From the NCBI GenBank assembly GCA_027620015.1, contig JAQCGH010000005.1, positions 1 through 64,000 of the forward strand: a stretch of 64,000 nt of DNA, written 5' to 3'. Made by a program: the position numbers and the translations under genes. This DNA is from Cyanobacteriota bacterium (GTDB taxonomy: Bacteria > Cyanobacteriota > Cyanobacteriia > PCC-6307 > Cyanobiaceae). Positions 52,385 through 55,778 of the stretch are shown here, in pieces (position 1 is the first letter of the stretch; every line of letters begins with the position of its first letter). A model generated the notes under the pieces. That model worked only from the letters and a program-made list of their open reading frames with translations, ran no database searches and was not told the origin of the DNA.

Positions 52385-53338
52385 ATGGCAAACCTCAAAG
52401 ACATCCGCGACCGGATTGGTTCGGTCAAGAACACCCGCAAGATCACCGAGGCCATGCGCCTTGTGGCAGCCGCCAAGGTACGCCGCGCTCAGGAGCAGGT
52501 GTTGCGCAGCCGTCCTTTTGCTGACCGGCTTGCACGCGTGCTGGAAAATCTTCAATCACGCATGCGCTTTGAAGATTCCGACGCTCCTCTGCTTGAACAG
52601 CGAGAAGTTGGCGCAATCACCCTGCTTGCCGTTACAGGTGATCGGGGGTTGTGCGGTGGCTACAACGCCAACATCATCAAGCGAACCGAACTCCGCACAG
52701 CTGAACTGATTGGCCAGGGCTACAAGGTGGATCTGATATTAATTGGCCGCAAAGCGATCACCTATTTCCAAAATCGCGCTAATCAGTACACGATTCGCGC
52801 CACTTTTACCGGACTTGATCAGGTGCCTAGGGCGAGTGAAGCGATGGGTATCGCCAACGAAGTGCTGGCGGAGTTTCTATCCGGCAGTACTGATCGTGTT
52901 GAGATCATCTTCACTAAGTTCATCAACCTGGTGAGCTCCAAGCCTGTAATTCAAACCCTGCTACCCCTCGATCCCCAGGGCATTGCTATCCCTGAAGACG
53001 AGATCTTCCGCCTTACTACTAGGGAAGGTCGGCTGGGAGTTGAAGTGGGCACGGCTGCAAACTTGCAGCCCAAGCTTCCCTCTGACATCGTTTTTGATCA
53101 GAGCCCTGATCAGCTGCTCAATGCCTTGCTGCCCCTCTACTTGGAAAACCAGCTTTTGCGTTCTCTGCAGGAGGCCGCAGCTTCGGAGTTGGCTAGTCGG
53201 ATGACCGCAATGAACAACGCTAGTGATAACGCCAAGGCTCTCGCCAAGAGTCTCACCCTTGACTACAACAAAGCTCGCCAGGCCGCGATTACCCAGGAAA
53301 TTCTGGAAGTGGTTGGCGGTTCTGCCGGTATGTCCTGA
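52385..53338 (+). CDS. atpC: ATP synthase subunit gamma
   Basis: [41 protein letters not shown]. Confidence 0.97.
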
Positions 53339-53340
53339 AT

Positions 53341-54045
53341 TTGGGTGTTGGTTTGCATATCGAGCCTCTGTTTCCGGTGGCTCTTGGCAAGGTGCAGCTC
53401 TCACCTGATCCTCTGGATACGGCACTGCAACTTCAGGCCCTTCACGAGCTGCGGGGCCAAGCCAGTTCCAACCCCGATCCTGGCTGTGCATGGACTGGTG
53501 ATCTCAATGGTGTCTGGCAGTTGCAGCGTCAGCCGTCCTTTGCGCCACTTATTTCTGTATTGACAGGCCATGCAGAAGCATTTCTGCAGCAATTGGGTTT
53601 CGATCTCAGCCGAGTGGACTTGCACCTGCAGCGCTGCTGGCCCGTGCTTAGTGAGGAGGGGCAGGTAGTGGGACGCCACCACCACCCAAACGCTCACCTC
53701 AGTGCCATTTACTACCTAAATGGAGATGGCAGCGGACGCAGTGGCTGTTTGCGCCTGTGGCCGCAGCGGCAGGTGAATGAGCTGGTGCCTGGGATGGCCG
53801 TTGGCCACGATGGTCCGCTGTGTGAGTCTCTTTGGAGTGCACCTTGGCTGGATGTTGCTCCTCAGGCAGGCCTGTTGCTGCTGTTCCCCAGCTGCCTTGA
53901 TCACGCCGTACTGGCCAACGAGGACCCGAATGACTTGCGTTGTTCACTCAGCATCGATTTCGCTTTAACAGCCCCTATGGCTAGTGATGATTGCTCACCA
54001 TCGGAGTATCTGGCTCCCCACCCCAGTCAGTGGCTAGAGCTTTGA
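53341..54045 (+). CDS. Putative 2OG-Fe(II) oxygenase (TIGR02466-like)
   Basis: HHHPNAHLSAIYYLNG...LLLFPSCLDHAVLANE...RCSLSIDF; TTG start 2 nt after atpC stop. Confidence 0.82.
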   Translation: MGVGLHIEPLFPVALGKVQLSPDPLDTALQLQALHELRGQASSNPDPGCAWTGDLNGVWQLQRQPSFAPLISVLTGHAEAFLQQLGFDLSRVDLHLQRCWPVLSEEGQVVGRHHHPNAHLSAIYYLNGDGSGRSGCLRLWPQRQVNELVPGMAVGHDGPLCESLWSAPWLDVAPQAGLLLLFPSCLDHAVLANEDPNDLRCSLSIDFALTAPMASDDCSPSEYLAPHPSQWLEL

Positions 54046-54109
54046 GGGCTGCCCCTCGAGCTGATGGCCTGGAACAATGGCCTTTAGCTGCCCACCCCGG
54101 CACCCTCCT

Positions 54110-54439
54110 GTGACCGAAACCCAGACCTTCACAATTACTGCCGAGTTTCAAGGCGCCCAATATATTTTTCCCTGCCGCAGCGACCAAACCGTGCTCTCTG
54201 CAGCCGAGGCCGCTGGAGTTCCTTTGCCCAGTTCCTGCTGTTCAGGGGTTTGCACCACATGCGCAGCTCTGATAATTGAGGGCAGCGTTCAGCAGCCCGA
54301 CGCCATGGGGGTCAAGCCAGACCTGCAATTGCAGGGCTATGCCCTGCTCTGTGTTTCCCTTCCCCAATCCGACCTGCGGCTCCAGGCGGGCATGGAGGAT
54401 GCCCTCTACGAAGCCCAGTTCGGCCAATATCAGAAATGA
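54110..54439 (+). CDS. 2Fe-2S plant-type ferredoxin
   Basis: LPSSCCSGVCTTCAAL...YALLC: CxxxxCxxC...C ligand pattern; GTG start at 54110 preferred. Confidence 0.88.
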   Translation: MTETQTFTITAEFQGAQYIFPCRSDQTVLSAAEAAGVPLPSSCCSGVCTTCAALIIEGSVQQPDAMGVKPDLQLQGYALLCVSLPQSDLRLQAGMEDALYEAQFGQYQK

Positions 54440-54627
54440 GTGGCGCAGCGGTGCGCCTGCAGCCTGTGACGCTGCAGTTCCGCCGTGTTCCAGGGCCGTT
54501 GTTGGCTCAGATTGAGGCAGCTTTGGCCCCCCATGGCCAACCGCTGCGCTGGGCGCTTACCGCGGTGGAGCCTGGCCTGGATGGATCTTGCCCATTGCTC
54601 ACACTCGAAGCGGTAGTGCTGGCATGA
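54436..54627 (+). CDS. Small conserved-context hypothetical protein (63 aa)
   Basis: ATGA overlaps with ferredoxin upstream and the DUF3326 gene downstream. Confidence 0.65.
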   Translation: MSGAAVRLQPVTLQFRRVPGPLLAQIEAALAPHGQPLRWALTAVEPGLDGSCPLLTLEAVVLA

Positions 54628-55778
54628 CGGCGAGCCGGCCTCTGCCCACCTTGCTGGTGATCCCCTCCGGGATTGGTTGTGAGATCGGTGGTTATGCGGG
54701 CGATGGCCTGCCTGCTGCCCGGTTGCTGGCGGCAGCCAGTGGCTGCCTGATCACCCATCCCAACGTGATGAATGGGGCCTCGTTGTACTGGAGCGATTCC
54801 CGCATCCACTACGTGGAGGGTTCGGCTCTCAACCGCTTCGCTGCCGCTGCGATCGGCCTGCGGCCGGTGCGCCGGCAGCGGCTGGGGCTGTTGCTCGATG
54901 CCGGTATCGAACCTGAGCTGCGCTTGCGCAATTTGCAGGTTGCCGAGGGTTGCCGGGCCAGTCTGGGTTTGGAGATCGGGCCGGTGGTCACCACCGATGA
55001 ACCCCTAATGGTCAGCCTGTCTCAGGGGGGCAGTGGAGCAAGCTGGGGGCATATTGGCCGTCCTGATCTGCTGCTGCGCGCCGGCCAGATGCTCAAGAAC
55101 GCCGGGGCTACAGCTATTGCGGTGGTAGCCCGCTTTCAAGATGACAATTCCAGTGAGGCCCTAGCGGCTTACCGCCAGGGAGCTGGTGTGGATGCTCTTG
55201 CCGGTGCTGAAGCGGTGATTAGCCATCTGCTCAGCCGCGAGTTGGGCCTGCCATGCGCCCATGCGCCTGCCCTGAATCCCCTGCCGTTGGATCCTGGCCT
55301 CGACCCACGGGCGGCGGGGGAGGAATTGGGCTACTCCTTTTTGGCCTGCGTGCTGGTGGGACTAAGCCGGGCGCCCGATCTAGTACCACTGGTGCCCGAC
55401 TCAGGACTTTTGCCCGAAGTCGGGGCTGATCTGCTCCGCATCGAAGAGGTTGGGGCTGTGGTGGCCCCGGCAGGAGCTCTGGGAGGAGCGGCTGTGCTGG
55501 CCTGTGCTGAGCGCGGCATCCCAGTGATCGCAGTGAATAATCCGTGCATACTCAACGTATCGGCTGCGGCCCTGGGATTGGAGGTACTCGCTGCGGAGAG
55601 CTATGCAGAGGCAGCTGGGTTGCTGGTGGCCCTGCGCGAGGGGATCAGCCCCTCTGCTCTTGTTCGCCCTTTGCAGGGGTTGAATACGATCAGCGCAGAC
55701 AGGCCATCGGGTGCCGGGGAGTCACATCCAGGGCCCGGGCAACACCGGGATGGCACACCGCTCCATGCACCGTATTAA
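54624..55778 (+). CDS. DUF3326 family protein
   Basis: LLVIPSGIGCEIGGYAGDGLPAARLLAAASGCLITHPNVMNGASLYW; ATG at 54624 preferred over 54588. Confidence 0.85.
   Translation: MTASRPLPTLLVIPSGIGCEIGGYAGDGLPAARLLAAASGCLITHPNVMNGASLYWSDSRIHYVEGSALNRFAAAAIGLRPVRRQRLGLLLDAGIEPELRLRNLQVAEGCRASLGLEIGPVVTTDEPLMVSLSQGGSGASWGHIGRPDLLLRAGQMLKNAGATAIAVVARFQDDNSSEALAAYRQGAGVDALAGAEAVISHLLSRELGLPCAHAPALNPLPLDPGLDPRAAGEELGYSFLACVLVGLSRAPDLVPLVPDSGLLPEVGADLLRIEEVGAVVAPAGALGGAAVLACAERGIPVIAVNNPCILNVSAAALGLEVLAAESYAEAAGLLVALREGISPSALVRPLQGLNTISADRPSGAGESHPGPGQHRDGTPLHAPY

Follow-up and report, generated by a model that had tools for sequence, protein, structure and literature searches.

What do the genes behind the atp operon of this cyanobacterium do, and which of them belong together? 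The original prediction saw a cassette of four genes here, a 2OG-Fe(II) oxygenase, a 2Fe-2S ferredoxin, a 63-aa open reading frame and a DUF3326 gene. It proposed that they form either an undescribed pathway or a ferredoxin-dependent enzyme whose small subunit is the 63-aa protein. The window, by which we mean the whole 64,000-nucleotide stretch of DNA that was analysed, carries a module of three conserved neighbours behind the atp operon, namely the genes for a Fed3 ferredoxin, a small protein and DUF3326. We believe there is an even chance that DUF3326 is the catalytic component, the small protein its partner and Fed3 an electron helper.

The locus is laid out as follows. The upstream neighbour is atpC, which encodes the ATP synthase gamma subunit in cyanobacterial naming (52385..53338, plus strand; PF00231 306.5 bits, TIGR01146 346.9 bits) and lies outside the module. 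Its TGA stop occupies 53336-53338, and the frame of the 2OG-Fe(II) oxygenase-like gene (53341..54045, plus strand; PF13759 64.6 bits, TIGR02466 77.8 bits) opens 2 nt later with the TTG at 53341, as predicted; a second TTG, at 53353, could serve as the start instead. The gap is so small that a terminator cannot fit between the two genes. A terminator-like stem does lie at 53350-53366, within the oxygenase start, in a scan that gave 6 sites where shuffled sequence averaged 3.1. Oxygenase and ferredoxin do not overlap: 64 nt separate the former from the GTG at 54110, the preferred start of the plant-type [2Fe-2S] ferredoxin (54110..54439, plus strand; PF00111 56.9 bits); the ATG at 54077 is possible too. 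From here on the genes interlock. The ATGA overlaps that had been described are exact, both at 54436-54439, where the ferredoxin runs into the 63-aa frame (54436..54627, plus strand), and at 54624-54627, where that frame runs into DUF3326 (PF11805; 54624..55778, plus strand). The 3' end of DUF3326 overlaps a convergent alanine dehydrogenase-like gene on the minus strand at 55690..55778, so that 89 nt of the 3' end of that gene are shared.

The neighbourhood is conserved well beyond this genome. We counted gene order in 80 named genomes, and in 64 the small gene is the immediate upstream neighbour of DUF3326. The finding that would have spoken against the cassette, DUF3326 occurring mostly without these neighbours, is therefore not what the genomes show. 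A ferredoxin lies at most 2 kb upstream of DUF3326 in 54/80, and ferredoxin and small gene are both present in 53/80. The small gene is within 30 nt of the DUF3326 start in 35 genomes, it has exactly the 4-nt overlap seen in the window in 16, and it was not found upstream of DUF3326 in 16 of the 80 (one of these with a short flank). An atpC gene within 5 kb is seen at just 6 of the 80 named loci, so a place behind the atp operon is not typical of genomes beyond the family of the window. The pair also occurs in genomes in which a search for Photo_RC gave no match. In three of these (G013, G021, G041) the small gene runs into the DUF3326 start, and a fourth (G026) has a weak small-gene candidate in the same place. 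On this ground we reject a role for the pair that is specific to photosynthesis. On the downstream side of DUF3326, 75 of 139 loci have a gene for a CAAX-protease-like membrane protein (PF02517; for example L056:6048-6638, 70.8 bits); in the window it is not adjacent.

The ferredoxin, the 63-aa gene and DUF3326 thus stand as a conserved neighbourhood, but the fourth member of the proposed cassette does not. The oxygenase has matches in 5 of 117 genomes, it adjoins the module only in Synechococcus/Cyanobium-type genomes, and outside the window's family the module exists without it. As a protein it is an ordinary member of the TIGR02466/PF13759 family, passing the curated cut-offs of both models (62.5 bits for TIGR02466), with a His-rich HHHPNAH and a later DHAV...R stretch that we picked out by eye as candidate ligand regions; what is lineage-specific is its position in the cluster. 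We exclude it from the module and regard the gene, on this distribution, as a lineage-specific insertion between atpC and the ferredoxin.

It is important to realize that the order of the remaining three genes has already been published. The arrangement fed3 - DUF650 - DUF3326 is the conserved 'cluster d' of cyanobacteria (Cassier-Chauvat and Chauvat 2014, PMC4284462). The window has the same order: a plant-type Fed3 ferredoxin comes first, then a middle gene, and last DUF3326, which is read in the same direction. It differs in the oxygenase gene added in front and in the middle gene, which is the 63-aa protein and not DUF650. PF04894, which we take to be the family formerly called DUF650, has no match in nine genomes, while three archaeal controls are positive, and none in 65 small proteins scanned. 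We reject DUF650 as the middle gene on these grounds, and the gene is therefore better described as an unannotated small family. The DUF650 label appears to be unsupported as far as these profile searches go. So fed3-X-DUF3326 is an order already in print, and the identity of X as an unannotated 63-aa family differs from the label it was given. Signature proteins of cyanobacteria have also been listed under their Synechocystis locus tags (PMC2823733), and both the small protein and DUF3326 may already stand in those lists. We found no assigned function for DUF3326 in the literature.

Is the 63-aa frame a real protein? It has no Pfam or NCBIfam family. Its G-x-P-L-R-W core belongs to a longer pattern, G-x-P-L-R-W-A-I/V/L-T ... 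V-E-A, that is found in frames directly 5' of DUF3326 across most cyanobacteria, and L, G, P, L, R, W and E are invariant in an alignment of 65 members (A3). A profile search of 292 Cyanobacteriota genomes at E 0.01 or better finds the protein in 207, nearly always in single copy. Within the Cyanobacteriia the profile finds it in 134/139, that is, in 31/36 genomes of the window's family and in 103/103 others of the class. Three of the five misses were examined (L041, L051, L054) and 3/3 carry the frame by motif, so at least 137/139 Cyanobacteriia have it, along with many non-photosynthetic relatives. Purifying selection is seen on every gene measured at the locus, and the dN/dS of the 63-aa frame between the window and the window's nearest relative (L048) is 0.08, within the range of the neighbouring genes. 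Because of this value and the near-universal, usually single-copy occurrence, we take the frame to be a genuine protein family.

DUF3326 is more widespread still. PF11805 matches 288 of the 292 genomes, comprising 139/139 Cyanobacteriia and 149/153 other Cyanobacteriota; all four genomes that lack it fall outside that class, and three of them form one genus of family f31. Among 14 control genomes only Synechococcus elongatus gives a match. The gene is kept even in streamlined cyanobacterial genomes of 1.6-1.7 Mb and in reduced non-photosynthetic relatives. The window's copy scores 465.9 bits against a cut-off of 25 and covers profile positions 2-336 of 337; its domain is no different from the rest of the family. 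What the protein adds is a non-conserved C-terminal tail past about residue 347, the part that overlaps the convergent gene; these last 35-40 residues fall outside the PF11805 match and are modelled with low confidence. The five f31 copies examined (L075, L077, L078, L079, L080) are instead shortened at the C-terminus, and they are without the conserved C-terminal helix (SYxEAxGxL...LRRP) seen in copies paired with the small gene.

An AlphaFold model of DUF3326 built with 70 aligned sequences (mean pLDDT 89.7, pTM 0.86) has an alpha/beta architecture. The invariant motifs of the family include PTG, GGxAGD, HPN, YVEG, GxGxD, ExxxSH and PxAHAP, and among the invariant Asp, Glu and His residues are D27, E65, D92, E196, H201 and H213 (P0004 numbering). 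In the model the PTG..GG.AGD, THPN, VEG, LD and AHAP stretches and a C-terminal GG stretch mostly follow strands. Foldseek found no PDB match at E 0.001, and TM on the query did not exceed 0.25 among the 50 matches listed; the best E value, 1.7e-3, comes with a TM of 0.17 and is unconvincing. The likeness to lumazine synthase is partial (TM about 0.2 on the query) and most likely reflects a common alpha/beta topology. N-acetylneuraminate lyase, the best hit of a profile search against the PDB (E 0.069 over 62 columns), and the PF01177 racemases, matched at E 0.03 by one member only, do not convince us as relatives, and a search against viral models gave no convincing match. Pfam and profile searches recognise no cofactor-binding family in DUF3326, and none of its fold or sequence matches points to a substrate, cofactor or reaction.

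The even-chance reading given above can now be spelled out. Because the acidic, His and Asn residues that never vary are mostly placed after strands, the usual position of active sites in such folds, we infer that DUF3326 would be a catalytic alpha/beta enzyme, as far as a predicted model can tell. The small protein, predicted as beta-alpha-beta-beta, would be a stoichiometric or regulatory partner of DUF3326, acting in docking, in oligomer formation or as a cofactor holder; the role of a small partner is plausible. Fed3 would supply or remove electrons in most oxygenic lineages, and elsewhere another ferredoxin, or none, would serve. Adjacent genes need not have interacting products, and physical interaction, catalysis and electron transfer are all conditional here.

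The rival that survives best holds that these are three independent housekeeping genes kept adjacent by inertia, the small protein having some general role of its own, such as small-ligand or RNA binding, and DUF3326 being unrelated to it. We consider this unlikely, though it deserves a serious hearing, and the evidence comes from the places where the cluster breaks. In the genomes of f31, which are small, have no Photo_RC match where tested and are presumably Gastranaerophilales-like (a MAG named Gastranaerophilales, L157, carries DUF3326), the small gene is separated from DUF3326 and found mostly beside or near glmS, with metK downstream in several. It directly follows or overlaps glmS in L171, L174, L195, L198, L200 and L201, and also in L173 and L176 (families f31 and f39); metK lies downstream at four of the glmS loci (L173, L176, L198, L201). 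In L170 and L192 the small gene is directly 5' of ahcY. The f31 arrangement shows the small protein leading an existence of its own, separate from DUF3326, and no other fact speaks as strongly against our reading. The genus g92 goes further, since DUF3326 is missing there in 3/3 genomes and the small gene is kept. Both observations are evidence against a strict complex. The small gene is also linked to the ferredoxin, with DUF3326 not alongside, in L179, L187 and G177. G177 belongs to a separate family of the class and is probably a deep lineage; its ferredoxin and small gene are 528 nt apart and its DUF3326 is more than 1.4 Mb away, so the small gene is linked to the ferredoxin as well as to DUF3326. 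Against all this, the adjacency of small gene and DUF3326 recurs away from atpC and in non-photosynthetic lineages, and inertia alone explains overlapping starts poorly. What survives in the broken clusters shows that no other member of the module is linked as widely as the small protein, that the earliest link observed is its pairing with DUF3326, and that Fed3 is optional, being lost in places where the pair stays.

A second rival gives the small protein a more specific job, that of a dodecin-type protein which binds or stores flavin and serves it to its partner. This was guessed from the sequence ahead of the fold search, and at the level of the fold the guess held. The model of the small protein has a pLDDT of 92.5 and a predicted order E8-16, H22-33, E35-45, E54-62, with the R-W pair, including the invariant W39, in strand 2. 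The protein resembles dodecins in its size and, as predicted, in its beta-alpha-beta-beta order and the Trp of strand 2, and dodecins are its best full-length Foldseek matches in the PDB (TM 0.62-0.65 on the query, probability 0.97-0.99, E about 0.1). A search of 117 Cyanobacteriota genomes, the window's included, for the canonical dodecin family, PF07311, gave no match, while two control genomes were positive, and this too fits the rival. However, the small protein reaches no PDB match at E 0.001, its topology is small and common, its beta2-beta3 loop is shorter than that of dodecins, and none of the 65 small proteins scanned matches PF07311. A profile alignment of the small family with nine dodecins gives a probability of 6%, and 2 of 150 column-shuffled decoys score equally, so filing the protein as a dodecin is not justified. 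The resemblance is one of fold only, and we regard the flavin reading as improbable.

The window's ferredoxin, for its part, is of the Fed3 type as judged by its sequence. Its ligands are spaced C-x4-C-x2-C, and at the C-terminus it carries the EDALYEAQFGQYQK tail that is usual in cluster ferredoxins. It shares 47-58% identity with those of distant cyanobacteria as against 35-36% with the two paralogues in its own genome. Fed3 has been reported as essential (PMC4284462). In conflict with that, a 2022 paper describes its full deletion in Synechocystis, with a defect solely in photomixotrophic growth (PMC8887894). Six genomes of the window's family (f1) keep the small gene and DUF3326 without a Fed3-like ferredoxin, their best ferredoxin matches being 36-40% identical, the level of other ferredoxins; in a seventh (G137) there is a ferredoxin of 51% identity, located elsewhere. 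No stand-alone 2Fe-2S ferredoxin was found in the f31 genomes checked, where Fer2 occurs only inside frames of about 590-620 codons or is missing, and all but one of these genomes carry DUF3326. The version in the original prediction, a true ferredoxin-dependent oxidoreductase in which Fed3 passes electrons to DUF3326 and the small protein is an obligate subunit, can point to the three genes in order in most named genomes and to the photomixotrophic defect, but the six genomes that keep the pair without Fed3 leave it unsupported and lead us to reject an obligate unit, the f31 genomes and the lack of a recognised cofactor-binding family in DUF3326 tell against it as well, and we consider it the least probable of the three rivals.

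Returning to the module of Fed3, small protein and DUF3326, we would tentatively go one step further, with less confidence than we have in the module itself. The pair could form a two-component enzyme in a core pathway of the Cyanobacteriota that has yet to be described, with a DUF3326 fold unrepresented in the PDB joined to a near-universal, unannotated partner of 55-65 aa, and the pairing may predate the photosynthetic lineages sampled. Retention of a protein by essentially every cyanobacterium, and by reduced relatives that are not photosynthetic, speaks for a core function, apparently an unassigned one. The small partner is easily overlooked by annotation, having no model in either database, and naming its family and its gene links makes an unknown experimentally approachable. 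The pathway could extend to plants by way of DUF3326, as a potato gene is annotated as DUF3326 (PMC13294368), which indicates that the family occurs there. A MAG labelled Anaerolineae (L154) also carries a DUF3326 gene, 33% identical, for which transfer, mislabelling or contamination is possible; it lies upstream of a very long frame that by eye resembles a nonribosomal peptide synthetase.
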